Source of the DNA: Eimeria necatrix
Taxonomy: Eukaryota; Apicomplexa; Conoidasida; Eucoccidiorida; Eimeriidae
NCBI RefSeq assembly: GCF_000499385.1
Contig: NW_013655160.1
Coordinates: 20,482 to 50,063 of the forward strand
Direction: 5' to 3'
DNA: 29,582 bases
Shown here: positions 1 to 29,582 of the stretch, one piece after another
Layout: each line of letters opens with the position of its first letter
Position numbering within the stretch: the stretch's first letter is position 1
Made by a program: the position numbers and the translations under genes
The notes under the pieces: generated by a model
Seen by the model: only the letters and a program-made list of their open reading frames with translations
Database searches by the model: none
Told to the model about the DNA's origin: nothing

Positions 1-448
1 TTGTTACGTTAACCGCGCCGTGGCATGTGCCGGCACGCACTTTCAGGCATGACACTCCTTTGTCAGACAGGGTAAAAGTATACATCCAGGGCCGCAAAAA
101 GTAGTTTGAGGAAAACATGAGCCACGTCAATGCGTCATTCAATGTGGATGTTTGCCTGCCGCTGCTGATAGTACCTTTGCTGCCAGTTTTTTCCACTGTT
201 TTGTTTCTTGCATGTCCTTCCGTGTTTACGCGCGAGATCGTCAACTAAATCTCGACAGAAAGTAGGCGGCTCCTTCCAGTTTCTAGACGTAAACAGAATT
301 ATCTCACGAAGAAAAAGATGCGGCAAGTGACAAGTTGTGCATGGCAACAGTTGCCTTGAAGCGTCATCACTTGCTGAAGCGCAAAAACAAATTGGTATGA
401 ACAAAACTAACACTGAATACGAATAATTGTGCCACATTTTGCCGGAAA
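1..448. other. Leading stretch without a supported gene
   Basis: No strict composite splice-like site occurs here. A weak CAG-AAA-GTAGGC lies near 256. The open frames on the - strand here are about 100 codons or shorter and have no recognisable domain. This could be the tail of an upstream intron ending at the site at 449. Confidence 0.4.
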
Positions 449-460
449 CAGCTAGTAAGT
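449..460 (+). other. Micro-exon site, triplet CTA (452-454)
   Basis: CAG-CTA-GTAAGT. This is the first strict site in the window. Its flanks match the site at 7214 over about 20 bases with three transitions, so the two are probably duplicates. Confidence 0.65.
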
Positions 461-3400
461 GCTACACTCATATTTATAAAGGTATTGAAATACAATTCGA
501 TATCTAGACGAATTGGCGGGTTCAACGGTAGACATTTACAGGACATGGACATTGATAGCCAAGTAGATGTGCGTCTTGTGTGGTATAAGCACACTTTTGC
601 GTGTCAGAAGCTACCAAGCAATCTGCCATTGTGTCGCAACAGTAGTTAAGGATAGACGCAAACTGCAGGGATGCTTTGTGCAAATCCAGCCACGGATCTC
701 ACTTCCTTGGTAGGATGCAATTGCCTACCGTGAGAAAGCACTGTTTTGCTATTCACGTACTTGGTTGCACCGCTTTTGATGATTTTGGGTAAGAGCCGAA
801 CCTGATTTATGATACTACGCTCATCGACTAGTTACTTGCACAAACACAAATGACGGACTCTGATGCACATGCGTCGCCAAAACTCATGTAAGAGCCTCTA
901 CACGGAAACGAATAACGAGGACTGCGGCATCGCAAGACAGGCCTGATGCAGAAGTGTGCAGCAAATATATAAGATGGTCTGACTCCACTTTTCACAGATT
1001 CCGATGATTCCGGGTATACGACGGCTTAGGCAGTGAGTCCTGCAGAGCGTTTACAGGCATGCAAGAGTGGCGTACTTATATCTGATGAAAGGGGTAAGAG
1101 AAAAAAGCCGGGGTGGAGCTGGGCACAACTGTGAGGCCGCAGCGCCATGCAGTGTTTGGAAATCCTTACAAACCACATCAGGAGTGATTTCAGTTGAGCA
1201 TTCAGTCCACAGCAACACCCGGGAGAACTGAAATACACGGGCAAGAACTGCAGCAGAGGCTCTGCCACACTTGAAGCAAGAACACTATGGTGGAAACACT
1301 TGAGACTTTGCCCAAAGAAAGTGTCGGCTTGAGTTGGCGATCAAAGGTAAGCATCCTGATAAGGAATGACTGTTGTGGCACTGCGTAAATCTGCTCCAAG
1401 ACTGTCATGATGCAGAGCTGTTGTAGCGCGATGTGAAGTTACTGCCGGCAGTCCTGCAGTCCTGGTGGGACGCTTAACAGTGACAAATGATGCTGTTATG
1501 CAGGTTTTCGCCACATGTCTTGATCGTCTGGTCGTGCATTGCTAATGTTTCGAGTAGTGTGTGCTTTTCGAAGTGCTGCGATTATTTCGACGCACTATAC
1601 CACCCATAGCCCACAGCCCAACCCGATAGCTGCACGCCAACAACGAAAGAGAGTAAGTAGCTGGCTTTACTTCCAGACTTCTTAAGGGCATGCACCAATA
1701 AATTGCTTATGTGCGTTTCAGGAATATGCGCCATAGTTGTTTCATTTCGGCTTCTCCCAGTAGCCGGGTCCCGACAAGGTTTTATTGCTTGGAAGCATGG
1801 GATGATTTACTCATTTTCTTAGTAACAGTATATGCCTGTGATAAACGTCTGAAGGTTATCTGAGGTTATCAGCAACATGCAATTTTTGAAACGCAGCTTC
1901 AATTCAGCATCGCTGTGCTGTGAGACATCATGGAGGCCGTGTCCTTATGGGGCAAGATATCAAAGGCGCTGCCTTCGTTTTAATCTTGTTGTGCAGGCAC
2001 CTATACAGTGTTGATGTGTTAGATGGAACTGGACGATAAGCAATGCGAAGGGGGAAAAATTGTCTAGCTGCCGGAAAGCAAGCTAGTACAATTCCTTAAT
2101 TGCAGCAAGTACGTGCACGCTTCTTTGTAGATCTTTTTGCTCGGAAAGCTCGCACGCTGATTTAAGCGAATACAACACAGGTTAGAAACAAGTGGCAGCG
2201 GTGGCTTGTTGGCAGGGCGGGCGACCACTGGGCGGACGCTTAAGAGGCGAAGTTTCGCGTGGTAGCGCGTGTCATGTATAAGGTAACTGAACGGTTTCAC
2301 ACTAGACTTTTACTTGTGGAAATCCAGGAGTAATGCGTTTGTTGGGCGCTCCCAAATCGCGGCTTTCTGCGCAAATGTGTGGTGCTGCGAACCAAGACAT
2401 TTTGCAACGAATTGAAGCTTCTTGAGAAACATCGTATCCGAAAGCGTTCGGAGAGAACGCTTTAATATTCTGCAAGTTCTTCCCCATTAGCAGGCCGAAG
2501 GCAATCGCGTACAAATTTTATGCAGCTAGTACGGCAGGCCTTTAGCCATCTTTTCTCCAATATCGTCTTTTGCGTGCTTTGAACTGGGAACTGCAGGCTA
2601 TGCAGGGAATGCTCAAAAACTCCTGCAAGATCACTAGCTGGGAATGTGGCGCAAAATGACCTTGTTGTCGCGCATATTATAATTTGTCAAGGTGCGTGAG
2701 ACGCGCATGATGGACGATCGCAGATTAACAGATACAAATGTACGTGTTTGTTGCTTAAGTGCAGAATACCAAATTTCGAAAGATAGAAAATGCCCAAGCA
2801 GAAAACGTAAAGGCCTGCCTAGAGCCAGTGCTTTTGTTGACATTGATCCATGATTTCGTAAACACAAATACAGGGACAGGCTTGCATAACTTGGTCCAGA
2901 GCAATGCTGCATTTGGATCGCGGGCGATGTCAGGATTCTCCTTTTGTTCCACTGATCGTGCAAAACAATGGTTTATCATTTCATTGCATCGTATCGGAGA
3001 AGACGGTATGCATTGGACCATGAAGAAGACATCACGGTCGCTTTATTATGTCAGCGCCACGCCGACAAAACGCAGCTATTACACACATGCAAGGCAGCAG
3101 CTTTTGTTCAGCCTCTAAGTGTCTTGCTTCGAGCCGAGTGGCTGATGGCACACGGCAATGCTGGTGCAAACGAGGATTTGAAAGCGTGCGCGGCCAACAG
3201 GTGCTATGTTAATGTGTAGCGTACATATGGAATGTGATAATATGCCGCAAGCAGTATACCTGCACTACCGCATGCCGTTTTGTGGGGTGCAGGTAGTAGG
3301 TGTTGCTTACATAACAAACCCAGTGACAAGCAGATGAGAATGTGGTTCTGTTTGCCAGGCTTGAGGTGAACTGAAGGCGTATATCACGTGCATTACGATC

Positions 3401-6400
3401 CGCAACCACAAATAACGCCGCACTTGCCAGTACGCAATAAAATAAAAATTTTTCGAAGGCGCGGTAAGTAAGTCGCGTGCGAATCAGAGATGCGTGCTAC
3501 TGAAGGTAAATATTTTGAGGGAAATATCAGCAGCCGCCACGCACCACGCTGTGCGCCGTATTTCAACGCTACTTTGGCAGGCAAAAGATGTATTTTCCGT
3601 GTAAATACACGAATTATCATGAACTGCATATGCGGGGTGGCTCTGAATGAGCTTGCTGTTCTATTGATTGAACACACTATATTGAAAATCCACCAAAGAT
3701 TCACAGGATATTTTGCCAAATATTTAATGACATCATTTTCTGGCTATGCATGAATAGAAAGAATCAGATACAATGCGCTTGCTTCGCTCCATGAATATGA
3801 AGGATGTACGCAAAATGCCTAATGAAGTGTGATGCACATATTTTCTTGAGTGCAACGGCGGCGTGGGTATTGGGACATCAGGACGACTTGCCGAGCAGCA
3901 TGCTACGCTACACAGAATCAGATATCACGACGTTTAGTTCTTTCGAAAGATATTTTTGCATTTTCTTGCAACGTTGTCTTTAAATGCTTTCTTCTATTCT
4001 CTTCGCCAGGAGGTCAGTGCGGTATCGACAGAGGAACCTGCTGTGCTCCAGCCCTACCTGCAACCAATTTTTTAAGGCAACATTTCGTTCATGTGAAATG
4101 CGTGGCGCCAAAGGACGTCTTCGTCACATTGCTTGCAGGAAAAAGCGCAAACCGACAATTTGCGGAGAAAAAACTACTAAACGTTTGTGGTGCAGCATTT
4201 TTGTTAATCCTGCGTGCTGCCGTTTTTAATCTTGAGCTAGCGTGGGGCATGGTCTATCTTATGAACAATTATTGAAAAGACAGAACAGCCTGCTTTGTCA
4301 TGATCCGTGTCGGCTGTATTTTCCAGCAGTATAGGCATCAAATACCGTGTTTCTGAGGGCGTGTTTTGAAGGACGTAAGTGCAGCGCTCACAGCATAATT
4401 TGGCGACCTTATCTAACAAGTGCCACAACATTCTTAGTGACGCCATATTGAAAAACAAAATCTAGTCCTGCGCCATCTGGGCGTTTTTAGAAGACCATCC
4501 CTGTGCTGACACTGCAACAGATTGCATAGGGAATATTGGATGTGCCTCCTCAAATGTACAGAGAAAGCAGTTCAGTGCTGTGCAGGCTACTACCAAGACG
4601 ATGTGTTGGTTGTTACTGCTTAACGCGCTCACGCAAATTTTAACTGGGAGTTGCAATCCTCTACTGACAGGCAGTACGTTGTTTTTTTCACAATTTCAAT
4701 ATCTGGTCACCCACTCCAAAGCAACTTGACGACATGCCGCTTTGAAGCATACTCCGAGCACGTAGAGCTGTCTTGTGAGGCAGTGGCACTAAAAGTGTGA
4801 ATGCAGCCAGCAACGGCAAAAGGCCCTAAAAGAAGTGATCGACTTACGATTAGGAATGTGTATTACTGAACCGGCACTAGTTGCTGATTGCAGGAAGACA
4901 AATGTGACATTGGCACGTCCAGTAGTGGTGATTACTGCGTCAAACTGCTGCTTTCGACATGGAAAAGCTGGCGATGGCCAGTTCAAGCGAAATGTCCGCC
5001 GTCTGCGACGTGAGCGGCATAGTAAAATGTGGAACAAGGGCGACAAGTGTAGGAAGCCCATAGCAGGTGCCTTCACGAGGTTGGCCCGTAGACGTGTGCG
5101 TGAAATGGCTTCGTTCGTCTTTATGGCAACAGAGAGTGAGTTTTAGCTGTACTGAGCTGCAAGGATACGACTGAACAACTAGATTGCCCTTAGTCCCAAC
5201 CTGTAGACTGGATCCCTGAGGCATCTGCAGCCCGTTGTTTGTTGATGCGACATGATCGAATGCTTGTAAGTAGGAGGCCGTGTACACGTACGATGAGCGA
5301 GATGAAAACTTTAGGCTTGCAGACCAAATGTCACTGTATAATAGTTTTGGCCAGTCACCAAAGTGCTCTCACATTAGTGCTTTGTGCTTAAGTCGTATTT
5401 GCCATCGTGCATTGAATAAAAGAGAAAGCATGCAAGTACACTACGCGTCGAAAAGTGTGCAGTTTGAGGCAGACATGCTGCTGGCTTTCTGAATTGTGTC
5501 GCTGAGGCTTTTTGCCCCATTCGCTCTCAAATCTAAGCATTTGAGCGAGGCGTGAGTGGATATGGAGCCGTTTTTGACTCGCCGTTTTCCTCACGCGCAG
5601 TTGTCCTTACTATAGTAGCATCAAGCCAAATTTCTTTTAAAAATGCGTTCCAGCAAAATGAAATGGCAGTGGCTGGCCACATCGATACTGTTGTAAACTG
5701 GGTCGCTAGTCAGCCAGAAAATGCCTCAACGGCACAACAACGCAGCTGGCTAGCGTAGCGGAGACTTCGGTTCTGCGTGTGACCGGACCTTTGCTATCCA
5801 CAGCTGGTGGGTGTGTGCTGTGGTGCTGCACTCGAAATTGTCATCGCTTCTTTAAACGTTTCCCCCACTGCAGAGTAAGAGCTCTAGCATTGTTCTGAAT
5901 GCAATCATAATGAAGCCAAATAGTAGAACAATATCGTTGACGTGCTCAATTTTCTAGTGGCATTAACAGCTGATGCAAGGGAACCTGCGTCGTTTCTGCA
6001 CACAGGATGTGAGTGAACAGATACTGGGGATCTTCAGGGCAGTTGACATTCGCTGTTCCTTAAATCCTTTGCGACTCTCCCGCAGCATCTACTACACGTA
6101 GCGTTCAACTAGCAAACCAGCCAAGCAACGAGTGAGCTTGTCCACACATATATAATTTTACAAGGCCTTTCTGACATGTCGCGACTACAACTAAGTTTCA
6201 GATAAACACAGAAAACTGGTTTGCAGCAGCAGGCCGTAGTTATCCACTTTTGAAATTTTCTTGGCACTGCAACGATGCTACCGCCTAAAACGTTGGAGTC
6301 ACGCAAGAAAGCAATGGAATGCTGAAAAAATTCTGGCTAAAGCAAAGCGACTCCAACCACGTGACTACGTCACTCGCAGACAGACATTACAATACACTAG

Positions 6401-21400: not shown

Positions 21401-24400
21401 AGTGTTTAAACGGTACGTGGAAAATATGTGCATTGCACGCGGGTTGCTTGTTAATCAGCCTTCAGTATCATAACGTAAGACAACCATACTAATTACGTTT
21501 ATTGAAATTGATTGTTTTAACAAAGCCCGAGTTGCAGGTTTTGTTTGTCGTGAAGTGGTATGCGTCGCTTGCTGATCGGAGAGTAGCATTTCCAGCTACG
21601 GAGTCACGTGCCATTGTTGCTACAACAACTTATCAAGGATACGGACAACAGAAAACACTGCTGACATCTTTCCTTCTACCAACAAGCAGGTTGATTTCTA
21701 TACAGTGCTTTCCGTACAACATTTGGAGGCGATATGAAGAAAATTGGGGCGAACACAAAAGCACAGCCTGCCTCATGATGCAATAGGAAATATTGCCTCC
21801 AGAGTTTTCTTTGGACACAGATGGTGCGTACTTTCTGAGTATACTCATGAATAAGCGTGCCGTTTACAACTGTGCAGACCATCAAATATGGATATCAGTA
21901 GCACGGCTCGTCAAATAGACGGGTACAGCCAGAGAAACAACCGATTTCTACTTCCCCGGTAAAGCCACAACAACAAATCTCGAATTGACGAGCTGTAAAA
22001 CCTGTGATAGAACAATATATTCAATGTCCTGGCTACATATCTCATAGCCCTCTTTGCAGGTCTTTTGGGCGCCCAAGGGTATGCGCCAGATGGGGATGGG
22101 AAAGTAGCAGTTCCTGAATGTCTCAATTCAGCGCCTCACGATTTGGCTGTTACTGGAAATCATGAAAATAACGCAAACGCAGTATTGATGCATTTCCGTC
22201 CACCAGTGAGCTGGTCTACTCACAGACAGTGTGTACTCTGCACTAACTGAATGGGATGAAGGAGCTTTCCGAACTATCACAATGCGACTAGCAATTTTGC
22301 TTCCGAGCTCCAGCTTTTGCCAACTGAGCACAGGATGTGCGTACTTGCTGTTCCTCCTTTTCTAATAGGTTGCGGCAATTTACATATTTATGAACAATAG
22401 AATTCGCTGTAACGCGAGCATCTTGTAGTGACAGGATATACTTATAGTCCCATTTCTCTGATAGCAAGAAAGAACAACCCGCATCGCACTGGAAATGTAG
22501 AACCAAGCGTATGTGGTACAAAGCATAAACGTGACAGTTTCCTGTCTGCTGTTGTACTCGTGGTCACGCTTTTTACATCACTTCGCAGCGTCTTTTCAAA
22601 ACGTTCCTGAGAGTTGTGCTTTGAATTTGTACGCAGAAAGTAATTAACGACCTGTGTAGCTCTGCAAGAGCTTCAGTGGGAAATATATTGTAGGATATGT
22701 GCAGTGAGCAGAGCTGACTTGCACGCACGGATATCGCTCTGAGGTTTGAAAATGCGGCCGCTATATCTCAGCGAATACCTTTTGTTTTGAGCCTTGCTGA
22801 CGCGTTGTAATAGCATGTGTTAGCGCGTATATTTTTCAGTGGGCAATGCAGCAGCCATTTAGTGACATGGAGCAAGGCGCTTCCTTGCTGTGAAAAGTAC
22901 TGTAGCCAATACCGGAGCTATGTGTACTCTAAAATTAAGAGTAAGCAATGAAAAGCGTATTTCCAGGTGACACAATGAGATGACCATGCACTCATCAACC
23001 TAAAACCTTCAAAACGTACGCTTAGAAGGCTCTGAATTTTAGCGCTATGGAATTAGCACTGTGAATGCGGTCTCTCTGAGTACTTGAAGTGCTCATGGCT
23101 TTTTCGAACATAACTACTGACTAAATGGTGGTAGGGACACCTAGCAATCAATGCTGCAATTTGTAAGTACAGGTCCCGTTGTTGTAGTGCTTTATCGCTG
23201 TTGAAAATGCGTCGATTGGAGAGCAGTGCCTGTGGGGAAAGAAGCTGAGACAGTCTGTAATTATTCTGCAGGTGCTGCTTTGTGAAAATTAGCTTCTTTG
23301 TTGGCACGACGTGTTGCAGTGCGGTTTGGCCATGGTGTGTACGCTCTCTTGTCACATGCTAATTTGAGTCATTCACTAATCTGATCTGCAGCGGATATGC
23401 TATTGCACATATTAGTGTGTTTGCTGGACGCAGCATTCAAAACGTGCTTCGGGAGTGTCATTCTCTTCTCTTTCGCTCCCACTATCCAGGAATATGGCGT
23501 GACATTGTGTTTCGTATGTGTTTTGTGTTTTGCATGTCCCCAATCGAGCTACATTTGTAAGGGTTCGTATTTTGTGTGCTGCTGCAGGACGTGAGTGACA
23601 AGAGTGCTTGCATCGCATGAACAAGTGTAATTTTGCTTAAGCTGAAGCAGTCTGATCATGATGGCAAGAGTTTGATGATATTGATGAGGATTTTACTGTG
23701 AAAAAGACTGGAGCTCATTTTTTGCAGCTGTCTTGTGAGTATGTGCCGCCTGCAGATTGCTTAAGCTGAAGCAGTCTGATCATGATGGCAAGAGTTTGAT
23801 GATATTGATGAGGATTTTACTGTGAAAAAGACTGGAGCTCATTTTTTGCAGCTGTCTTGTGAGTATGTGCCGCCTGCAGAAAGTGCATAGCATCTGACAG
23901 CTAAGGACGGCTCTGCTGGTCGAAAGCGCAGAGGGGCTCCTATTCGGCTTTGTGAGTACAAGCTGTTATATTGGTTAAAGTGCTCTTCATGACAATAGTA
24001 ACAGGGTGTAAACCACATAAAACGTGAGTGCGCTGTAGGTTTCGCCAATCTAACTCTGCCTGCCGAGAGTCACAAGGAGTACAGAATGGGGATAAACGGT
24101 GGAACGGATCCAGGTGCAGTACAAGGCAACAGCCATGCTGCGCATTTTTCTATGCTGCAGCACTACCACTGACTACGGTTGACAGTCTGTGACGATTTTC
24201 TGCCAGGACGAATAAAGTATAAACGCCGAGTGGCAGGGGCATGCTCTGACATGCTTATTCAGATACTGCGCAGCATATGGCCGTAGATGCTCTTCATATT
24301 CTGTGCAGGTACTAAAGCACATTTGGAAAATGCACGAGACGTGGAAGTCACAAGAAATGAGACTGTGGTCTCCGGGCATTGTGGCAGTCGCTGACTGTAC

Positions 24401-27400
24401 GCTTTTGCATCGTATGTTTTTTGTTACAGCTGGTAGGTGCCAGCATGGCTTCGCGAAAGACAGCAAATAGGTGGGTGCAGCTAAAAGATCTTAATACCTG
24501 AATGGAGGATCATTAGATGAGATCGCCAATTGGCGTGTAAAGCCAATGATTCTGGCTTCCTGCAAGCAGCTGCCAACGTAAGTGAGTGTCCTGTAAAGGA
24601 GACGTATATGTAAGTTAAGTGCACCCTACCAAAAGTGACGTGATAGAAAGAAAATTATCTTCGTATTGTTTCTTTGCAGGAGAATAGTGCCAGGCACTTG
24701 AGGCAGAGGTTTTACCATGTCATCAGTTTTATTCGGTATGTAGTTGCTAGCCGAGTGCACGATTCTGCGTCTCATGCCTCTGCAGTCTGGTTGTTCGCAA
24801 CAACGGCATCAACATTAGGCAGTTTAAACAAAACTCTGGTTGTGACTAGAATCGTGGATTTTAAAGCCTCATGGTGTGCCCGATTTCGCCGTCAACATTA
24901 CGCCAACTCAACCATATTGTGCAACTGCATTTTCGTTCCTCGCAGGACGTACGTGCAGAGCTGTCAATTTCGCTTGCATTTGATACTTTAGGTGTAAAAC
25001 GACGCGACTGCAGTAGTCGTCCTAGACATTTTGCAGCTTCCGTTTTCAGCACGCTTGAATTAAGGCCCTCATTTTCGTTCCTAAGTTGTGGCACTGTTAC
25101 GAATGCGCAAAACCGACTACAGCTCAACAAAGTTTTGTCTGTTCAAAAAATACTGCGAAAAGCAGGTTATTCTCTAGCTTGAGGTGATTCTTTTGCAATT
25201 TGCGATTGCGATGTTGGTGACCAGCAATAGAGGTCTAATTTGGAGGTAAGTGGATTCACAGACAACAATGCAGATGCTTGCTTTCTAGGGACTTTTTTTA
25301 CATTAAACTGTCACATTAGAAAATCTGCATTTCTTGCAGGACACAGCCTTCTTCAAAACAACTAAAGTAGTCCGCGAACTACAGGCTTTGCTCAAGCACG
25401 CGTTTCAAGAATTATGTTGGCGTAGACCTTTGCATGATGAGCTACAAGGCGCTCTATAAAGACGAAGCGTAGCAAGTGCCACTGCAGCTTTCTGTATTTA
25501 GCGCATGATTCGTTTGTGTCATCATACTACTAGGGGCCCCACTTCTGACTGGCTGCTTCTCGATGTCCTCGCCGCAGGAGGTGGGTCACTGCGTCATTGA
25601 AGCTGGCCACGGTTAAACCGTGGACGCTTTTGCATGCCTTGTACAAGCCATATCCAAGAACAGTACAACAGAAACAGAAACACGAACGTACGATCACCGT
25701 CGATTAGGTTGTATTCGGCAGTAGCTCAGCAAATTCTTAAGTGCACCATCAAAATGCGAGTGCCGTTTTCTTTGGCCGAACTGCCTGTGGTGTTAGCGGC
25801 ACCGTTCAGTGCAAACTCAGTCTCACTAATTAAACTGCGATCAAAGACCTTTAGTTCACATGCTTTTACTTGCTGTTGGCAAGGCGAAATCTGCCTTCAT
25901 AGAGAAAACGCCACACCTATGGGGCGTGCAGCCACACCTTTCTGCGGAGAGCCTCTATGCAGCTCACACGATGCTGCTTGCCTGTACTTGAATGCAGCAC
26001 GTGAGTAATGGTGATATTTCAGAGGGGGAAACGCTTGTTCATATATATGCGGCCAAAGCTGCTAGTTCCGTAAGAATCCGTCCTCAGGCTGAGTGAAGCA
26101 CAAGCGCGAATACAAGAGCTGGCTTGTTTGCTTATTCGAACAGCTATTCAGCTCGGCAGGAGACTCATAGGCTTGCACTTGAGGCTAACAAACAACCACT
26201 GGCAGCTGTTAGGACTGTAATTTGCTGATGAAAGAGTGGGCATCGCGGGATGAGTGTCCTCCCGACGCAGCGTCAAGGAACTGCGTGGACAGATGGTTGC
26301 TAGAAATCACGCTTATTGGCACTGTTCCTTATGCTAACCAGCGAATCCTTTTCTACAGAATGCGAGCTCTGCATTAGCTAAAGGCGATACAATAAAACTG
26401 ACCAGGCGTCTACAAATACAAAATAGGCAGCAAGTGTGGTAATGCAACAAGTAATTTTGCTCATGATTTTTCTTTGCGGAGCACAGCTTGTGCGTACTTG
26501 TCTCTCTGATTTTATGTCCATGTGCTGTTGTGCACTCCATCAAAACGAGGCTTCAATAGCTAAGAGCCTTGCAAAACGCATGCCATCACGAAGGCAGCCT
26601 ATAACTAATTTCACGATAAATCCGCAACCGCTAATGTTAGGTGGAGTTGGACATTAGCTAGCAGCTCGTTTGGAGATATGACCAATTACTTTGGGGAAGC
26701 TGGAACACGCGAAGAACTGTACGGCCTGTAGGAAGGTTTTCTGTGATGGCAGGTTGAAACAATCCGCATCACACTGAAAAGGTAGAACCAAGCCGATGTG
26801 GTACAAAGCATAAATGTGACAGTTTCCTGTCTCCTGTTGCACTCGTGGCCACGCTTTTTACCTCACTTCGCAGCGTCTTTTCAGAACGCTCCTGAGAGTT
26901 GTGCTTTGAATTTGTACGCAGAAAGTAATTCGCGAGCCGTGCAGCTCTGCAAGAGCTTCAGTGGGCAATATATTGTAGGGTCTGTGCAGTGGACAGAGGT
27001 GACCTGCATGCACGGATATCACTTTGAGGTTTGAGAATGTGGTCGCTGTTTCTTAGCGAATATCTTTTATTTTGAGCCTTGCTGGAGCGTTGTAGCAGCA
27101 TGCGTTAGAGCGCGTATTTTGCAGTGGGCAATGCAGTAGGCACTTAGTGACATGAAGCAAGGCACTTCCTTGCTGTGAGAAGTAGTGCAGCCAATACCAG
27201 AGCAATGTCTATCTCAAGCTCAGGTGCATAAAATATCTCTGGCAAGCGCTTTGCCACACAGAACAGCAGAAGAGTACGAGCTGGACAGGGTAACACATGA
27301 ATTGACGTGGAATTGACGACATGGAGGACCTTGCAGGAACTGCCAACGCTCGCACTATTGTCATGACAAATGGTAAAAGATGAAACTTCATATGGGCATC

Positions 27401-29385
27401 AAAAGCCTTCTTTCACTTCAAAACCATGACAGGAGGGGGCCTGAAGAGGGCAATTGCATTTATTCGCACCGAGAAATTCAAAGCATAAGAGCCAGGGGCA
27501 AGACACAATATGCACTCGAATCGGTGGCCAAAAGCATAGCAAAACACCGAGGCTAACTCAACAACATTGAAACCACCTGTGTATCACAGATGAATATTTG
27601 AAGCCACAATCGAACTTTTAAAAGCTCTGCTCGCCGCTGTGAAGCACAAAAGTTCCGTTCCTTCACAGTCTTACACATATAGTTTTTCTTTGCCTGCAGG
27701 GTTTTGGCTGGGAGCGAGTCTACGATTAATGACTGTAGGCCAATGAATGCAGAGAGTAAGTTTACGTGGGCACCATGAAGACTCCTGAGTTAGCTGCAAT
27801 ATAAAACTGCCACTGAGTGCCTTTTTTGTGCGTACAGTTCACTGAAAATCAAAGCTTACTTGAGTCATTCGAAATCCTGCGAATGAATTCATAATTACTC
27901 TTTAGCAGGTGCTTCGGAGCGTGTGCAGCTGCAAACCACTGGGTCAGAGAAAGCACACATCAAATTACCAACTGCACAGGAAAAACATATCCCGGTGGGC
28001 GCAGCCTGCTCACGTTGGTTCTGTTGCAGCAGCTTCGCTGTAACTGTCCGCTTGTGCCTTGGATTCAGTGAGCAAGATGAGTTTCCTGTTTGTTTGGTAA
28101 GTAGAGCTTTCCGGGGTATCAACAGTGCGTGTTCGCCATCCCTAGTTAAAAGCATGGTGCTACGCTGCCGTTCTAGATTCGAAAGACACGGCGAAATCAA
28201 CGCGCCGCCATAGCTTAGCAACGCGCATGGCTTACTGAGTGGCAGCCAGCATGCAAGACTGAACGTGTCAATTTGAGCTGGTTCGGCAGCAAGAGATGGC
28301 AGTTTCAGTCAAGCGGCCTTGGATCTGCAAAGGCAATAATTAAAGTACAGTCCTCACGCCGTGAGTTGCTAGCTGCTAGGCACAGTCTGTTAATAAAGTA
28401 GTGATGGTTGATGACGAGACTAATCTTAAAATGTGTGGTTCCTATCTTCAAAAGAATGCGAGCTTGGTGTACTTACTTCCGCACCTTATATGATTCATTG
28501 CAGCGTGTGGGTGCAAAACTCATCTTAGCTGCCGGCAGGCAATTGTGCAATCTTCTATGAGTAGCGCTCCGGCAGAATATGAAAGTAGGGGCATAAGAGA
28601 GCCGTAGGTGCGCTTCCTATTATTCAGACTAGCAAGATCTGCATTTTTCGTGTGGGTGTAAGAACTCGTGATTCGCTTCAGTGTCCACGTTTCCAATACG
28701 TCCGTGCACATAAAGCCGCATATTGTACATCGGATTTCCCAAGCCGTTTTCGCATTTTGCTGATGCGAATCAAAGCAGCAAGGCGCGTCATGTGAATAAA
28801 GAGCACCGTGCAAAACGGAATGCATAAAATCATGACGAACTGCAGCTACATGTGTAGCCGCCTTTATGTGAATTGCTCCAAGCGCTAGGAGAATAAAGCT
28901 ACGAAAAGCCAGCACCTGATGCCCGAATATAGAGCGTGAGCTAAAGTTATGATCCTTGTTTGAAGCTACGGCCTGCGCACTCTATAATACCCGGGATATT
29001 GCATCATAGGCATTACGGGCCTCCAGTCATGTGGTATGGTAGACTTTACACCGCGCAAATCAATCGCAAGAGCATTATGCTGCAGTATTGTGAAGCACTG
29101 CTGCGTCGCTCTGATGAATGCTTTGTTTTTGTCACCCCTTTCACGAGACTAATTCTCGAAAGCTAGAATTCGTGAAAATTTCGCAAAGTTGGTGAGAGGT
29201 TTTTGGCGCTGCAGTTACAGCAGAGCAGATGGTGGTGCGTCGCTCTGACAGAGAGTATGACCAAGTTTCAGCCTGCACGCCACTCGCCAGCGACTCAGTC
29301 GATAGACGCATGCCGACCGGCAGCCGGTGCAAAGGGTTCTACAGCAGTAGACACGCTCGCAGGATTTTTGTTGAAGAAAGTGCGT
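449..29385 (+). CDS. Candidate giant gene(s) made of serial single-codon micro-exons
   Basis: No known family is recognised. The span holds 42 strict copies of HAG-NNN-GTRNGT plus about 20 weaker ones, all on the + strand, spaced mostly 170 to 800 bases apart. Each copy looks like an intron acceptor, a 3-nt exon and an intron donor. The strict triplets give 8 Leu, 8 Arg, 5 Lys, 5 Asp, 4 Glu, and a few Ala, Val, His, Met, Gln, Thr, Pro and Gly, with no stop. First bases are 14 A, 14 C, 14 G and 0 T. Donor hexamers are GTGAGT 10, GTGCGT 8, GTAAGT 6, GTGGGT 6, GTACGT 5, GTGTGT 4, GTAGGT 2 and GTATGT 1. The bases between sites are non-coding in appearance. I cannot see the true first or last exon, whether one gene or several are present, or whether longer exons are interspersed. 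The alternative is a 12-base motif with a non-splicing role. The motif array is certain; the gene interpretation is inference. Confidence 0.42.
1027..1038 (+). other. Micro-exon site, triplet GCA (1030-1032)
   Basis: TAG-GCA-GTGAGT. The implied upstream intron, from 455, is about 575 bases. The run before the acceptor is not especially pyrimidine-rich. Confidence 0.6.
1647..1658 (+). other. Micro-exon site, triplet AGA (1650-1652)
   Basis: AAG-AGA-GTAAGT. The donor is canonical but the acceptor is AAG rather than YAG, and the upstream run is A-rich, so the acceptor is less certain. Confidence 0.5.
2103..2114 (+). other. Micro-exon site, triplet CAA (2106-2108)
   Basis: CAG-CAA-GTACGT. The acceptor follows a T-rich run (ATTCCTTAATTG). 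The donor is of the GTACGT subtype seen at five strict sites. Confidence 0.65.
2523..2534 (+). other. Weak micro-exon site, triplet CTA (2526-2528)
   Basis: CAG-CTA-GTACGG after AAATTTTATG. The donor lacks the final T. It is retained because CTA recurs as a triplet and the spacing of 420 bases from the previous site is typical. Confidence 0.4.
3290..3301 (+). other. Micro-exon site, triplet GTA (3293-3295)
   Basis: CAG-GTA-GTAGGT. It is ambiguous because GTAGTA directly after CAG could itself serve as a donor with no intervening exon. The upstream run CCGTTTTGTGGGG is T/G-rich. Confidence 0.5.
4007..4018 (+). other. Micro-exon site, triplet GAG (4010-4012)
   Basis: CAG-GAG-GTCAGT. This has one of the best acceptors in the window: about 25 bases of nearly unbroken pyrimidines (3980-4006, including TTTCTTCTATTCTCTTCGC) precede the CAG. 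The donor has C at the third position. Confidence 0.6.
4369..4380 (+). other. Micro-exon site, triplet GAC (4372-4374)
   Basis: AAG-GAC-GTAAGT after GTGTTTTG. The donor is canonical and the acceptor is of AAG type. GAC is also the triplet at 23588 and 24946. Confidence 0.55.
4668..4679 (+). other. Micro-exon site, triplet GCA (4671-4673)
   Basis: CAG-GCA-GTACGT. The acceptor follows AATCCTCTACTGA. The TGACAG ending is shared with sites at 8901, 17798, 24183 and 29249 and may include a branch-site-like element. Confidence 0.65.
5130..5141 (+). other. Micro-exon site, triplet AGA (5133-5135)
   Basis: CAG-AGA-GTGAGT after the pyrimidine-rich run CTTCGTTCGTCTTTATGG. AGA is the most repeated Arg triplet (1650, 5133, 9999, 17801, 27753). 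Confidence 0.7.
5801..5812 (+). other. Micro-exon site, triplet CTG (5804-5806)
   Basis: CAG-CTG-GTGGGT after CCTTTGCTATCCA. It resembles the sites at 7941 and 11362, which have the same acceptor and donor and a Leu triplet. Confidence 0.7.
6003..6014 (+). other. Micro-exon site, triplet GAT (6006-6008)
   Basis: CAG-GAT-GTGAGT after CGTTTCTGCACA. The implied upstream intron is about 195 bases, among the shortest in the array. Confidence 0.68.
6598..6609 (+). other. Micro-exon site, triplet AAA (6601-6603)
   Basis: TAG-AAA-GTAAGT after AATTTCGC. The donor is canonical. AAA is the commonest Lys triplet in the array. Confidence 0.65.
6710..6729 (+). other. Possible 11-nt micro-exon (6713-6723)
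   Basis: CAG, then 11 bases, then a canonical GTAAGT. The spacing is not a multiple of three, so it would shift the frame unless compensated. It lies only about 100 bases after the donor at 6604. It may be chance, since any given spacing yields one or two hits. Confidence 0.2.
7214..7225 (+). other. Micro-exon site, triplet CTG (7217-7219)
   Basis: TAG-CTG-GTGAGT. The flanks GGAAA and AGTGCT are shared with the site at 449, where the triplet is CTA. Both triplets encode Leu, so the difference is synonymous. Confidence 0.68.
7730..7915. repeat. 93-bp diverged tandem repeat, two copies
   Basis: Copy 1 is 7730-7822 and copy 2 is 7823-7915. Both begin GAATCAGATATATAACCT and share TTCAGCTTTTGTGGCT and CTGTACTTT, with roughly 80% identity by eye. 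It lies in the interval between sites 7217 and 7944. Each copy contains CAG followed five bases later by GTGGCT, a weak splice-like arrangement. Confidence 0.85.
7941..7952 (+). other. Micro-exon site, triplet CTA (7944-7946)
   Basis: CAG-CTA-GTGGGT after ATCTTGCTTGACCTGCTA. Together with its flanks it matches the site at 11362 over 19 bases with two differences, one of them the synonymous third base of the Leu triplet. Confidence 0.7.
8330..8341 (+). other. Micro-exon site, triplet AAA (8333-8335)
   Basis: CAG-AAA-GTGTGT after TTCCCCGACTGCACA. It shares its core and the following GAA(C/G)CGC-like bases with the site at 16529. Confidence 0.65.
8683..8764 (+). CDS. Possible first exon encoding a hydrophobic leader
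   Basis: An ATG in a favourable context (AAAAAATGG) opens 27 codons plus one base, ending at a GTAAGA donor-like hexamer (8765-8770). Residues 8 to 26 are hydrophobic and rich in Leu, Gly, Ala and Cys, compatible with a signal peptide or membrane anchor. If used, it would mark a gene start inside the array. It ends in phase 1, whereas the surrounding triplets read openly only in phase 0, which argues against a simple join. No family is recognised. Confidence 0.18.
8901..8912 (+). other. Micro-exon site, triplet ACC (8904-8906)
   Basis: CAG-ACC-GTATGT after ATTACTGCTGA. This is the only strict site with a GTATGT donor. Another strong acceptor (a long T/C run then CAG at 8945-8947) follows 40 bases later, with no donor three bases beyond it. 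Confidence 0.6.
9413..9424 (+). other. Micro-exon site, triplet CAA (9416-9418)
   Basis: CAG-CAA-GTCAGT after CGTTTGCATTTCCA. The acceptor is good and the donor has C at the third position. Confidence 0.55.
9699..9876. repeat. Multi-stem fold: two hairpins within an outer stem
   Basis: Stem A pairs 9711-9729 with 9736-9754 (19 bp, one mismatch, 6-base loop). Stem B pairs 9772-9805 with 9812-9845 (26 of 34 positions paired, two symmetric 4-base internal loops, 6-base loop). An outer stem pairs 9699-9710 with 9865-9876 (10 of 12). This would give a three-way junction within the interval between the sites at 9413 and 9996. It may be a structured intronic RNA or a decayed inverted-repeat element. 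Confidence 0.7.
9996..10007 (+). other. Micro-exon site, triplet AGA (9999-10001)
   Basis: CAG-AGA-GTGAGT, the same 12 bases as at 5130. The upstream run is not pyrimidine-rich (GCGAGTGGCGTG), so the acceptor is weaker than at 5130. Confidence 0.6.
10550..10561 (+). other. Micro-exon site, triplet AGG (10553-10555)
   Basis: TAG-AGG-GTGCGT after TTATTGTCAA. It precedes the 808-base interval that contains the large inverted repeat. Confidence 0.6.
11045..11246. repeat. Near-perfect inverted repeat, 93-bp arms
   Basis: The left arm 11045-11137 pairs with the right arm 11154-11246, with a 16-base spacer (11138-11153) and a single G-G mismatch (11101 against 11190). Because of the symmetry, nearly the same short open frame reads on both strands. 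It lies in the interval between the sites at 10550 and 11362. The low divergence suggests recent origin by inverted duplication, or a fold-back artefact. Transcribed, it would form a long hairpin RNA and could bring the flanking splice sites closer. Confidence 0.92.
11362..11373 (+). other. Micro-exon site, triplet CTG (11365-11367)
   Basis: CAG-CTG-GTGGGT after GTGTGCTTCTTTA, a strong acceptor. It is a probable duplicate of the site at 7941. A secondary donor-like AAG-GTGAGA lies just downstream near 11381. Confidence 0.72.
11534..11545 (+). other. Micro-exon site, triplet GAG (11537-11539)
   Basis: CAG-GAG-GTGCGT after AAATTTCCAA. The implied upstream intron is about 169 bases. Confidence 0.65.
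11865..11876 (+). other. Micro-exon site, triplet AAA (11868-11870)
   Basis: TAG-AAA-GTGCGT after CTATTTGTTTCTTCA, a clear pyrimidine tract. Confidence 0.7.
12332..12343 (+). other. Micro-exon site, triplet GAA (12335-12337)
   Basis: CAG-GAA-GTGTGT after ATGCAACATCG. There is no strong pyrimidine tract. Confidence 0.55.
13257..13268 (+). other. Micro-exon site, triplet CAC (13260-13262)
   Basis: CAG-CAC-GTGGGT, preceded by TGAATTACTAA. CAC recurs at 25998. The interval since 12335 is long (925 bases) and contains only a weak TAG-AAT-GTGGAT at 12844. Confidence 0.6.
13932..13943 (+). other. Micro-exon site, triplet CAA (13935-13937)
   Basis: CAG-CAA-GTGAGC after GACGTGTCTC. The donor ends in C instead of T. 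Confidence 0.5.
14431..14442 (+). other. Micro-exon site, triplet CGA (14434-14436)
   Basis: CAG-CGA-GTCAGT. The donor is of the GTCAGT type seen at 4007 and 9413. The upstream run is mixed. Confidence 0.45.
14571..14590 (+). other. Possible 11-nt micro-exon (14574-14584)
   Basis: TAG follows an excellent pyrimidine run (TTATTTTTTTCCC). A donor-like GTAAGG comes 11 bases later, and CAG-CT-GTAAGG is an alternative within it. The frame effect is not a multiple of three. Confidence 0.25.
14875..14886 (+). other. Weak micro-exon site, triplet TAT (14878-14880)
   Basis: CAG-TAT-GTGTGA after CTAGTTGTCG. It is one of few candidates whose triplet begins with T, and its donor is weak. Confidence 0.35.
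14887..15985. other. Long interval with few splice-like sites
   Basis: No strict composite site lies in these 1.1 kb. Weak candidates are CAG-TCT-GTGCCG at 15249 and TAG-A-GTATGT at 15544. An acceptor-like run ending in CAG (15485-15487) is followed directly by GTGTTT. No gene is recognised. Confidence 0.4.
15998..16009 (+). other. Micro-exon site, triplet GTT (16001-16003)
   Basis: TAG-GTT-GTACGT. The 12 bases just upstream (15986-15997) form a second, weaker copy, TAG-AAC-GTTTGT, abutting it head to tail. If the upstream TAG is the acceptor, the exon would be 15 nt (15989-16003) rather than 3. Confidence 0.5.
16036..16053 (+). other. Possible 9-nt micro-exon (16039-16047)
   Basis: CAG follows a pyrimidine run (CAACCTTTCAAATCT), and nine bases later comes GTGCGT. 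It lies only about 30 bases from the donor at 16004, too close for both to bound one intron, so it may be an alternative to that site. Confidence 0.25.
16076..16121. repeat. Hairpin with 22-bp arms and a 2-base loop
   Basis: Arms 16076-16097 and 16100-16121 pair with two mismatches; the inner 15 bp are perfect. No T-run follows and no coding unit precedes it, so a bacterial-type terminator is unlikely. It is probably an intronic hairpin or element terminus. Confidence 0.8.
16529..16540 (+). other. Micro-exon site, triplet AAA (16532-16534)
   Basis: CAG-AAA-GTGTGT, the same 12 bases as at 8330, with similar bases after the donor. Confidence 0.62.
16842..16853 (+). other. Micro-exon site, triplet ATG (16845-16847)
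   Basis: CAG-ATG-GTGCGT after TTTCGGGTACCTG. The same core occurs at 21818. Confidence 0.65.
17798..17809 (+). other. Micro-exon site, triplet AGA (17801-17803)
   Basis: CAG-AGA-GTGTGT after CCACTTTTGA. The interval from 16845 is long; a weak TAG-CT-GTGAGC occurs at 17511. Confidence 0.62.
18057..18068 (+). other. Micro-exon site, triplet GAA (18060-18062)
   Basis: CAG-GAA-GTACGT after GTGGTAAATC. The donor is good and the acceptor tract is poor. Confidence 0.58.
18547..18558 (+). other. Weak micro-exon site, triplet CTA (18550-18552)
   Basis: TAG-CTA-GTGCGC. The donor ends in C. CTA also occurs at 452 and 7944. Confidence 0.42.
18802..18813 (+). other. Micro-exon site, triplet AAA (18805-18807)
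   Basis: CAG-AAA-GTAAGC after GTCATCATTTA, a fair acceptor tract. The donor ends in C. Confidence 0.52.
19169..19180 (+). other. Micro-exon site, triplet CTG (19172-19174)
   Basis: CAG-CTG-GTGAGT after TTTGTTCATCTTCTCA. This is one of the strongest combined acceptor and donor pairs in the window. Confidence 0.75.
19341..19352 (+). other. Micro-exon site, triplet CCT (19344-19346)
   Basis: AAG-CCT-GTGAGT. The acceptor is of AAG type in an A-rich context. This is the only Pro triplet among the strict sites. Confidence 0.45.
19616..19627 (+). other. Micro-exon site, triplet CGT (19619-19621)
   Basis: TAG-CGT-GTGAGT. CGT recurs at 28504. The bases GTGTGAGT allow a one-base exon as an alternative register. 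Confidence 0.55.
19628..21050. other. Long interval lacking strict splice-like sites
   Basis: This is the widest gap in the array (about 1.4 kb). Only loose candidates appear: CAG-TCTG-GTGTAT at 19940, AAG-TCTAT-GTAACT near 20478, TAG followed nine bases later by GTGAGA near 20717, and CAG-GTGTAT at 20754. A longer exon could hide here, but no open frame stands out. Confidence 0.4.
21051..21062 (+). other. Micro-exon site, triplet GGA (21054-21056)
   Basis: CAG-GGA-GTAAGT after CTCATACCGGAATTATC. It has a canonical donor and resumes the array after the widest gap. Confidence 0.65.
21264..21275 (+). other. Weak micro-exon site, triplet AGC (21267-21269)
   Basis: CAG-AGC-GTTTGT. The acceptor follows CTGCCTCGTTTCGC and is strong. 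The GTTTGT donor is unusual but is also seen at 15992. Confidence 0.4.
21818..21829 (+). other. Micro-exon site, triplet ATG (21821-21823)
   Basis: CAG-ATG-GTGCGT after GTTTTCTTTGGACA. With 22331 and 26484 it shares CACAG before the triplet and GTGCGTACTT after it, while the triplet differs in all three. Confidence 0.7.
22331..22342 (+). other. Micro-exon site, triplet GAT (22334-22336)
   Basis: CAG-GAT-GTGCGT. The flanks GAGCA and ACTTG are the same as at 26484. It lies about 300 bases before the duplicated AAA site at 22634. Confidence 0.68.
22498..22514 (+). other. Possible 8-nt micro-exon (22501-22508)
   Basis: TAG, eight bases, then GTATGT. In the duplicate copy near 26780 the donor GT is lost (GATGTGG), so it is not conserved between the repeats and is probably chance. 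Confidence 0.15.
22634..22645 (+). other. Micro-exon site, triplet AAA (22637-22639), repeat copy 1
   Basis: CAG-AAA-GTAATT after TTGAATTTGTACG. It is fully conserved in the duplicate at 26919, which raises confidence despite the GTAATT donor. Confidence 0.5.
22821..22832 (+). other. Weak micro-exon site, triplet CGC (22824-22826)
   Basis: TAG-CGC-GTATAT. The duplicate copy has two inserted bases here (TAGAGCGCGTAT), so the 3-base spacing is not conserved. Confidence 0.25.
23251..23262 (+). other. Weak micro-exon site, triplet TCT (23254-23256)
   Basis: CAG-TCT-GTAATT in a purine-rich context (GAAGCTGAGA), so the acceptor is poor. Confidence 0.3.
23585..23596 (+). other. Micro-exon site, triplet GAC (23588-23590)
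   Basis: CAG-GAC-GTGAGT after TTTTGTGTGCTGCTG. It is a strong site. The 124-bp tandem duplication begins about 40 bases later. Confidence 0.7.
23725..23740 (+). other. Possible 7-nt micro-exon, tandem copy 1 (23728-23734)
   Basis: CAG after CTCATTTTTTG, then CTGTCTT, then GTGAGT. Both splice signals are strong. Seven bases would shift the frame; with the second copy the total is 14. An 11-base exon ending at GTATGT is an alternative register. Confidence 0.4.
23849..23864 (+). other. Possible 7-nt micro-exon, tandem copy 2 (23852-23858)
   Basis: Identical to the site at 23725 and created by the 124-bp duplication. Inclusion of one or both copies would leave different frames. Confidence 0.4.
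24002..24013 (+). other. Weak micro-exon site, triplet GGT (24005-24007)
   Basis: CAG-GGT-GTAAAC after CATGACAATAGTAA. Neither the donor nor the acceptor tract is strong. Confidence 0.3.
24183..24194 (+). other. Weak micro-exon site, triplet TCT (24186-24188)
   Basis: CAG-TCT-GTGACG after GACTACGGTTGA. It has the TGACAG acceptor ending and a weak donor. Confidence 0.3.
24427..24438 (+). other. Micro-exon site, triplet CTG (24430-24432)
   Basis: CAG-CTG-GTAGGT after CGTATGTTTTTTGTTA, a very strong acceptor tract. Confidence 0.72.
24567..24583 (+). other. Possible 8-nt micro-exon (24570-24577)
   Basis: CAG after TTCTGGCTTCCTGCAAG, eight bases, then GTAAGT followed at once by GAGTG. It lies about 130 bases from the preceding donor. 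Its length is out of frame. Confidence 0.3.
24943..24954 (+). other. Micro-exon site, triplet GAC (24946-24948)
   Basis: CAG-GAC-GTACGT after TGCATTTTCGTTCCTCG. Both splice signals are strong. An acceptor-like run TTGTTTCTTTGCAG (ending 24679) lies about 265 bases upstream with an open frame between, so a longer exon is possible here. Confidence 0.7.
25470..25481 (+). other. Weak micro-exon site, triplet CAA (25473-25475)
   Basis: TAG-CAA-GTGCCA. The donor is poor and the site lies only about 100 bases before a strong one. Confidence 0.25.
25575..25586 (+). other. Micro-exon site, triplet GAG (25578-25580)
   Basis: CAG-GAG-GTGGGT after CTGCTTCTCGATGTCCTCGC, a strong pyrimidine tract. Confidence 0.72.
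25995..26006 (+). other. Micro-exon site, triplet CAC (25998-26000)
   Basis: CAG-CAC-GTGAGT. A 124-codon open frame (25634-26008) ends at this donor, so the exon could extend upstream rather than being 3 nt. No domain is recognised in that frame. Confidence 0.62.
26063..26075 (+). other. Possible 4-nt micro-exon (26066-26069)
   Basis: TAG-TTCC-GTAAGA, only about 60 bases after the donor at 26001. It has a good donor and a poor acceptor. Confidence 0.2.
26428..26439 (+). other. Weak micro-exon site, triplet CAA (26431-26433)
   Basis: CAG-CAA-GTGTGG. It is close to the stronger site at 26484 and may be chance. Confidence 0.25.
26484..26495 (+). other. Micro-exon site, triplet CTT (26487-26489)
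   Basis: CAG-CTT-GTGCGT after GATTTTTCTTTGCGGAGCA. It is a duplicate of 22331 with conserved flanks but CTT in place of GAT. Confidence 0.7.
26738..27214. repeat. Dispersed direct repeat, copy 2 (about 477 bp)
   Basis: Partner of 22455-22930, about 4.28 kb away in the same orientation. The matched sites at 22334/26487 and 22637/26922 show that the older duplicated block spans at least two consecutive sites, with about 130 bases of indel between them. Confidence 0.9.
26919..26930 (+). other. Micro-exon site, triplet AAA (26922-26924), repeat copy 2
   Basis: CAG-AAA-GTAATT, identical to 22634 although the surrounding repeat has diverged. Confidence 0.5.
26931..27749. other. Interval without a strict splice-like site
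   Basis: It holds the rest of repeat copy 2 to 27214, then about 530 bases of unremarkable sequence. CAG-G-GTAACA occurs near 27287, and a strong acceptor-like run TTTCTTTGCCTGCAG ends at 27700 without a donor three bases on. Confidence 0.4.
27750..27761 (+). other. Micro-exon site, triplet AGA (27753-27755)
   Basis: CAG-AGA-GTAAGT. The donor is canonical and the acceptor tract is weak (GCCAATGAATG). Confidence 0.6.
28501..28512 (+). other. Micro-exon site, triplet CGT (28504-28506)
   Basis: CAG-CGT-GTGGGT after CACCTTATATGATTCATTG. The upstream interval from 27756 is about 745 bases and contains a lone GTAAGT (28096-28101) and a lone GTGAGT (28361-28366). Confidence 0.65.
28930..28941 (+). 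other. Weak micro-exon site, triplet AGC (28933-28935)
   Basis: TAG-AGC-GTGAGC. The donor ends in C and there is little pyrimidine tract. Confidence 0.4.
29186..29197 (+). other. Weak micro-exon site, triplet TTG (29189-29191)
   Basis: AAG-TTG-GTGAGA. It has an AAG acceptor and a T-initial triplet, so it is doubtful. Confidence 0.28.
29249..29260 (+). other. Weak micro-exon site, triplet AGA (29252-29254)
   Basis: CAG-AGA-GTATGA after CGTCGCTCTGA. The acceptor is good, but it lies only about 60 bases after the previous candidate. Confidence 0.38.
29374..29385 (+). other. Micro-exon site, triplet AAA (29377-29379)
   Basis: AAG-AAA-GTGCGT after GATTTTTGTTG. This is the last strict site; the array probably continues beyond the window. 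Confidence 0.5.
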
Positions 29386-29582
29386 CATTTCATTCACGCA
29401 CTAACTGGCTGCGGAAAGTCGCACCCGCCCAGCTCAACATTTACAATTGAGCATAGCCATCACTTCAATCTTTTGCCTTGGTTTGCTGTTGAGAAAACGT
29501 GTTTAATAAGTAAAAACGAGTACTGCGTAGAGCTGTGACACTTTTTCGAAGACAATTCAAAAGCATGTTAAATTATTCGGAC

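Follow-up and report, generated by a model that had tools for sequence, protein, structure and literature searches.

A putative gene of consecutive single-codon exons in the coccidian parasite Eimeria necatrix

Introduction

One strand of a stretch of Eimeria necatrix DNA carries, over and over, a splice acceptor and a splice donor separated by exactly three bases. The stretch, called the window below, is 29,582 bases long and corresponds to bases 20482–50063 of contig C64 (NW_013655160.1), its right edge being the contig end. The question that it raises is whether the triplets are exons, each of them one codon long. Schistosome micro-exon genes (MEG) make protein variants by exon skipping, and their proteins are secreted and have a signal peptide. 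Aphid bicycle genes have many small exons. The ratchet points of recursive splicing, found in Drosophila and vertebrates, leave no base between acceptor and donor. To our knowledge, no gene class of serial single-codon exons is known. Among the papers listed on Eimeria, Cyclospora, apicomplexan microexons and 3-nt exons, mostly open ones judged by title and the start of the abstract, none is about genes with serial 3-nt exons. From the analysis given here, the window is very probably part of one plus-strand eimeriid gene whose coding sequence, as far as it is seen, would consist of about 50 consecutive one-codon exons separated by phase-0 spliceosomal introns of about 100–2000 bases. The stretch is assigned to a single gene because the sites share a single strand.

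Results

Sites in the window

The strict site, YAG-N3-GTRNGT, occurs 39 times on the plus strand of the window and once on the minus strand (29396–29407). With the acceptor relaxed to HAG, the counts become 43 and 2. The first-pass annotation had given 38 and 42 for the plus strand, correct in substance and slightly low in figure, and had taken the minus strand to be empty, which it is not; the extent that it assigned to the sites, 449 to 29385, is the same on recount. It had also made its reading depend on an excess at spacing three over shuffled sequence, and such an excess is present. Dinucleotide shuffles (n = 100, both strands) gave a mean of 3.30 strict sites and a maximum of 7, against 40 observed. 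Every other YAG-to-GTRNGT spacing (k) from 0 to 30 gave 0–7 matches on the plus strand and 0–3 on the minus strand, the largest being k = 8 with 7 and 1. The spike at three described earlier is sharp, but the range of about one to three matches that had been quoted for the spacings from 0 to 11 was too narrow. Acceptors that abut the donor (k = 0) are not enriched, with two on the plus strand and one on the minus strand.

The window contains 105 GTRNGT words on the plus strand and 33 on the minus strand. Outside the spacing-3 sites, 62 are left on the plus strand, against 65 expected from base composition and 61 from a first-order Markov model; for the minus strand, the predictions are 49 and 43. 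The strand excess of GTRNGT is mostly the spacing-3 class, and three is the only exon length that stands out in the window. As both models overestimate the minus strand, a modest number of real donors (perhaps 15) of exons of other lengths may hide among the remaining words.

The sequence common to the window sites comprises splice-like positions and nothing further: T or pyrimidine around −6, −7, −10 and −14 to −17, CAG or TAG, a purine at −1, and GTRNGT. G is not enriched at the position before the donor. AG is depleted at −13 to −3 of the 47 best sites (0.019 per base versus 0.066 overall), as at true acceptors. The triplets thus have the acceptor context upstream and the donor GTRNG(T) downstream that belong to a 3-nt spliceosomal exon, and the array on contig C485 (below) adds a lower limit of intron length. 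A splice score was built from that array, with the letters of the triplet outside the score. At score 8, forward sites in the window number 55 and reverse sites 8, which makes it probable that several of the 53 listed here are false; at score 9, the numbers are 47 and 6. The median site-to-site spacing is 490.

Candidate single-codon exons of the window are listed by position, strand, triplet with the residue that it would encode, kind of site and splice score. Strict sites are YAG-N3-GTRNGT; HAG sites and other rows carry an AAG acceptor or a variant donor.

259..261, +, AAA (K), CAG/AAA/GTAGGC, donor outside GTRNGT, 10.2
452..454, +, CTA (L), strict, 13.6
1030..1032, +, GCA (A), strict, 9.8
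1650..1652, +, AGA (R), HAG site, AAG acceptor, 8.2
2106..2108, +, CAA (Q), strict, 14.8
2526..2528, +, CTA (L), donor GTACGG, 11.2
3293..3295, +, GTA (V), strict, 11.7
3803..3805, +, GAT (D), AAG acceptor, donor GTACGC, 11.3
4010..4012, +, GAG (E), donor GTCAGT, lower confidence, 8.7
4372..4374, +, GAC (D), HAG site, AAG acceptor, 11.2
4671..4673, +, GCA (A), strict, 13.4
5133..5135, +, AGA (R), strict, 18.2
5804..5806, +, CTG (L), strict, 12.3
6006..6008, +, GAT (D), strict, 14.4
6601..6603, +, AAA (K), strict, 8.4
7217..7219, +, CTG (L), strict, 10.1
7944..7946, +, CTA (L), strict, 11.6
8333..8335, +, AAA (K), strict, 11.8
8904..8906, +, ACC (T), strict, 10.4
9999..10001, +, AGA (R), strict, 15.5
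10553..10555, +, AGG (R), strict, 12.5
11365..11367, +, CTG (L), strict, 14.5
11537..11539, +, GAG (E), strict, 15.1
11868..11870, +, AAA (K), strict, 12.6
12335..12337, +, GAA (E), strict, 12.9
13260..13262, +, CAC (H), strict, 13.4
13935..13937, +, CAA (Q), donor GTGAGC, 12.9
16001..16003, +, GTT (V), strict, 8.9
16532..16534, +, AAA (K), strict, 13.9
16845..16847, +, ATG (M), strict, 15.4
17801..17803, +, AGA (R), strict, 10.5
18060..18062, +, GAA (E), strict, 12.7
18550..18552, +, CTA (L), donor GTGCGC, lower confidence, 8.4
18805..18807, +, AAA (K), donor GTAAGC, 13.6
19172..19174, +, CTG (L), strict, 17.1
19344..19346, +, CCT (P), HAG site, AAG acceptor, 11.7
19619..19621, +, CGT (R), strict, 10.3
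21054..21056, +, GGA (G), strict, 13.4
21821..21823, +, ATG (M), strict, 13.8
22226..22228, +, ACA (T), strict, 10.9
22334..22336, +, GAT (D), strict, 13.4
23588..23590, +, GAC (D), strict, 15.5
24430..24432, +, CTG (L), strict, 13.7
24946..24948, +, GAC (D), strict, 14.5
25578..25580, +, GAG (E), strict, 11.4
25998..26000, +, CAC (H), strict, 14.3
26487..26489, +, CTT (L), strict, 14.1
26922..26924, +, doubtful site AAA, donor GTAATT, within duplicated block, other copy has the same letters, 8.4
27753..27755, +, AGA (R), strict, 14.8
28504..28506, +, CGT (R), strict, 13.4
28933..28935, +, AGC (S), donor GTGAGC, 11.5
29252..29254, +, AGA (R), donor GTATGA, lower confidence, 9.8
29377..29379, +, AAA (K), HAG site, AAG acceptor, final site before contig end, 11.5

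The window has other features of its own. A 474-base block is present in two copies (22453–22926 and 26738–27211; 411/474 identical), both located between strong triplet sites and each with a weak CAG-AAA-GTAATT. At 23633–23880, a 124-base unit is repeated twice with no difference, and contains an acidic open frame before GTGAGT. A near-perfect palindrome of about 200 bases (11045–11246, 94%) was found by self-comparison on opposite strands.

Arrays in the rest of the genome

The genome searched comprises 44.0 Mb in 1148 contigs. A genome-wide count of spacings, which the first-pass annotation had proposed as a check, gave 6834 strict sites at spacing 3 (3357 + 3477 on the two strands), against 2835 at spacing 4 (1430 + 1405) and 3251 at spacing 6 (1584 + 1667). 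The same motif read backwards gave 1488 + 1444. Strict spacing-3 sites exceed the counts at neighbouring spacings by 3600 to 4000. Among the matches listed, the sites form one-strand arrays on several contigs at the loci examined. In six cluster strands pooled, 82 sense sites and a single antisense site have k = 3, and other spacings up to 79 give 1–14 sense; at k = 6, 9, 12 and 15, there are 3, 8, 5 and 9 sense and 2, 3, 2 and 1 antisense sites.

Several clusters sit on contigs of 11–15 kb, and one on C3 adjoins telomere-like repeats. The examined loci contain telomere-type TTTAGGG repeats, and runs of alanine and glutamine in open frames. One short-chain dehydrogenase fragment is most similar to sequences of Eimeria maxima (68% over 77% of the query) and E. 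praecox (84% over 52%), in keeping with an eimeriid host. No start exon and no end exon were found at any locus. When window positions 4000–8500 were searched in the genome, they matched only themselves; 10-kb stretches of C485 and C561 each found one piece elsewhere, of 84 and 122 bases respectively.

The loci have other features as well. At the end of C14 (L024, 7400–9068), a subtelomeric repeat of diverged units lies just before the TTTAGGG telomere; repetition gives it YAG-N3-GTRNGT words, but it is distinct from the arrays and lies outside the triplet set. On the minus strand of C2, L023 has an internal duplication of 1610 bases with 87% identity. L025 has an open frame at 3241–3744 with no Pfam match at 0.001, which by eye we take to resemble part of a dynein heavy chain. 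In L027, units of INGG/INSG type repeat along a long open frame (3650–4850).

The array on C485

The clearest array is on the minus strand of C485 (8001–18000), where HAG-N3-GTRNG occurs 82 times; the plus strand has none, and shuffles give 6.0 for both strands. The array was extended by the adjoining 6 kb. At a score of 8 or more, there are 129 forward and 2 reverse sites, and at 9, 128 and 0, although these counts are not independent of the score, which was trained on C485. The chain has 128 sites over 16 kb, with spacings of 93–253 (median 116). The chaining step itself forbade spacings under 60; with no spacing forbidden, however, none of the 117 sites scoring 11 or more are closer than 93. 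In 2000 random placements of 128 points, the minimum spacing was never above 8. The spacing floor of about 90 bases looks like a minimum intron length, and with such a minimum, most of the chain has no room for further exons.

The C485 introns have a median length of 113 bases. AG is depleted at −13 to −3 of the sites (0.013 per base versus 0.073 overall). The spacings are even over modulo 3 (44, 42 and 41), and 124 of the 127 introns, if retained, would break the frame or bring a stop. An example stretch of the predicted spliced peptide is VDEEDPGYGFPYA.

Three neighbouring C485 introns share pieces of 52 and 70 bases with 90–93% identity; among the 127 introns, likeness is limited to two neighbouring pairs and a third, weaker one. 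Neighbouring identical residues are in excess in this array (15/127, mean 8.1, P = 0.012), with 6 neighbouring identical codons (mean 3.3, P = 0.12). Over all loci, there are 35 neighbouring identical residues versus 30.3 (P = 0.20). Growth by codon duplication was rejected as a general rule, as the excess of repeated residues is confined to C485 and few introns are alike.

The paralogous contigs C5 and C6

The alignment of C5 with C6 covers about 11 kb, and 7658 of its 10608 bases are identical (72%; 28% differ). Each has 22 HAG-N3-GTRNG sites, 19 of them at the same place. Other spacings from 0 to 30 have 0–3 conserved sites on this strand and 0 or 1 on the other; k = 0 has two sense and one antisense. 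The spacings k = 9 and k = 15 keep three sites each, and exons of these lengths may exist in small number.

Of the triplets at the 19 shared sites, 8 are unchanged and 11 have diverged, among them CTA/TTG twice (leucine), TAC/TAT (tyrosine), GTT/ATT, ACT/AGT and ACA/TCA. The BLOSUM62 sum of the 11 changed triplets is +17, versus −0.3 for random changes at the same positions (P = 0.008), and 3 changes are synonymous versus 1.06 expected (P = 0.045). No stop arises, an outcome that chance gives in 18%. The triplet bases that differ (20/57, 35%) are not below the whole alignment (28%). As judged from the alignment, what the two contigs conserve is the layout of the sites and, to a lesser degree, the residue type. 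Between two triplet sites, a third-position bias runs over 24 codons of C5 (L015, about 5207–5340) and the matching part of L021; a stop follows shortly in one copy, and the stretch is possibly a longer exon or a relic.

Stop codons and composition of the triplets

Stops were counted over 13 arrays, where 1 of 432 triplets is a stop, located in C570, versus 13.6 expected when letters are shuffled within each position. Eight of the 13 strands were met first in the genome-wide site list or lie on the window's contig. The other five (C184, C485, C561, C570 and C637; 249 of the 432 triplets) were picked for having several TAC or TAT triplets, a choice that favours sites with T-A triplets. The test was therefore repeated without these strands and without TAY. 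The eight strands not picked in this way have 0/183 stops versus 4.5 expected (P = 0.006), and all 13 strands with TAY triplets removed have 1/415 versus 9.3 (P = 0.00025). The set leaves out L001–L005, L014, L024–L027, L034 and L035, and ten scored loci among these have 0–5 sites per strand at score 11; L006–L008 overlap L023, which is included.

Intronic triplets served as controls, at 13 offsets on 12 strands. They contain 13–23 stops versus 21–27 expected; 3 of the 13 offsets have P < 0.05, the strongest with 13 stops versus 26.7 (P = 0.0007). In the same 12-strand comparison, the exon triplets have 1/425 versus 13.5. The introns are mildly deficient in stops, and the deficit is far stronger at the exon triplets. 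Across the arrays, the triplets show the near absence of stops and the codon-like substitutions expected of phase-0 coding exons.

The window by itself gives no test for stops, since shuffling its 53 triplets yields 0.00 expected stops, and none of the 39 strict triplets begins with T. The claim that the window codes is made because of its likeness to the other arrays. At sites genome-wide, there are 61 TAR triplets (backwards control 113), 45 TGA (38) and 143 TAY (138); a background of 2835 sites, as at k = 4, spread evenly over the 64 triplets would give about 89, 44 and 89. The genome-wide excess adds no visible stops but few TAY either, so we regard this comparison as weak support.

The window triplets are mostly charged or aliphatic (42/53). 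Amino-acid classes differ among 12 loci (χ² 102.9, P = 0.0002), more than at any intronic offset. Several intronic offsets, too, show significant differences between loci (up to χ² 73.6, P = 0.004), and part of the between-locus difference at the triplets is therefore a matter of base composition.

Homology and small-RNA searches

The spliced peptide of C485 (129 amino acids) gave 25 candidates and no match at E ≤ 10 in 5.8 billion proteins. Its best scores were 0.26 in Pfam, 0.044 in NCBIfam (NinE) and 0.52 in the PDB; the best PDB match of the window peptide was 0.036. Seven spliced peptides had no Pfam match at E 10, and that of C561 (51 amino acids) gave no candidate. Homology was rejected for the weak matches, which look like chance: SPT16 (E = 0.52), PHO23 (E = 0.036), Rsm22 (E = 0.26), NinE (E = 0.044) and BamD (E = 0.23). 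Rfam has no match in the window at gathering scores, nor in L028, L033, L013 and L030 at E ≤ 0.5. A host gene of small RNAs (snoRNAs) was rejected on these searches, which cover described families.

Discussion

The proposal of 3-nt exons made in the first-pass annotation is favoured by the genome-wide spike, the one-strand arrays, the stop deficit and the conservation between paralogues, all of them computational tests. We infer that the triplets are included in mRNA, where they would be joined in order and then translated. As acceptor and donor factors can hardly both sit on three bases, the introns would be recognised each across itself and removed one after another. The lack of G enrichment before the donor suggests that recognition rests on the intron side. 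After one splice, the triplet would close the lengthening upstream exon, and its GTRNGT would serve as the next donor. Each step would resemble a ratchet point of recursive splicing, except that one codon is left behind. New codons may arise by tandem duplication of an intron-plus-codon unit, and one run in C485 looks recent.

The nearest competing account keeps the splicing and drops the protein: the sites could serve as stepping stones by which long introns are spliced recursively, or be exons of a non-coding host transcript, their triplets carrying no protein information. The architecture is like that of ratchet points, and many window introns are long; the triplets of C5 and C6 evolve no slower than the whole alignment, no spliced peptide has a relative, and the window's own triplets give no stop test. 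However, zero-length sites, which are what ratchet points would leave, are not enriched, and the C485 introns are too short to need stepping stones. The scarcity of stops, much stronger than in the intronic controls, and the changed triplets of C5 and C6, which resemble amino-acid replacement, also speak against it, as do the Rfam searches against a non-coding host. We consider this account unlikely. Another possibility is that the genes do code but that most triplets are optional cassettes, whose skipping or inclusion keeps the frame and yields many variants per locus. The only clearly enriched exon length is indeed frame-neutral, and variants made by skipping are attributed to schistosome micro-exon genes, but constitutive use would agree just as well with the strength and even spacing of the signals in C485. 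Optional use is a version of the single-codon-exon reading and shares part of its probability; taken for most triplets, it is possible but rather doubtful.

Decayed gene copies are common beside telomeres, and the arrays might be decayed or silent copies that have kept their splice signals through recency only. Several clusters are on short contigs, one of them beside telomere-like repeats; gene ends were not found, and C570 has its stop triplet. Yet C5 and C6 have kept 19 of 22 sites while differing at 28% of bases, and stops are avoided across the 432 triplets, which makes decay very improbable. Hardly any weight is left for an origin of the motif in chance, in low complexity or in a dispersed repeat. 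The subtelomeric repeat at the C14 end does carry the motif, but the window sites share only splice-like positions, and pieces of the window, C485 and C561 find in the genome only themselves and the 84-base and 122-base matches. Chance and composition are rejected by the dinucleotide shuffles (window and C485), which fall far below the observed counts, and the arrays are one-stranded.

A gene of single-codon exons would resemble several known systems. Excerpts of a study of Schistosoma mansoni give MEG genes 10–20 exons of 6–81 bp (3–81 in its abstract), most of 15 bp, with long introns (PMC10526429). The arrays are alike in that exon lengths are mostly a multiple of three, with three dominant here. 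They differ from the MEG exons described there in being clearly enriched in length 3 only, in number, the chain at C485 having 128 sites, and in occurring in a protist. By exon length, the arrays fall outside the MEG genes; a likeness in style remains. Aphid bicycle genes, in insects, have longer exons. As at ratchet points, acceptor and donor are too close together to be used other than successively; three bases, one codon, lie between the signals here instead of none. For the 1-nt exon of Arabidopsis APC11, excerpts of PMC4674806, which also name recursive splicing, propose that the flanking introns are removed one after another. That case agrees with the arrays in that splicing can handle exons of 3 nt or fewer; tiny exons of the APC11 type, as described there, are isolated, whereas the gene here would be made of them.

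In E. tenella, a parasite of the same family, gene-poor subtelomeric regions are described (excerpts of PMC9131526), and the genome is segmented into feature-poor and feature-rich regions (excerpts of PMC3505466). As these excerpts have it, the chromosome-end regions have few predicted genes, and one class is not enriched for any particular repeat family. Our guess is that arrays may fill such gene-poor subtelomeric regions of Eimeria.

If the reading is true, exon size is at its practical limit throughout a gene, with the coding sequence cut at every codon, and the spliceosome must handle more than 100 successive exons, none of which has room for both splice sites to be occupied together. The excess of 3600 to 4000 strict sites genome-wide is a measure of the scale. 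It is a long extrapolation, put forward tentatively, that this coccidian has a whole class of genes with several thousand exons, one codon per exon. As every exon would be a frame-neutral single codon, splicing could lengthen or shorten the protein by single amino acids, and each tandem duplication of a unit of about 110 bases would contribute one more; regions near coccidian chromosome ends that pass for gene deserts may be packed with such genes. Runs of 3-nt exons are outside what ordinary gene finders and read aligners expect, and for this reason eimeriid gene catalogues may miss a class of proteins.
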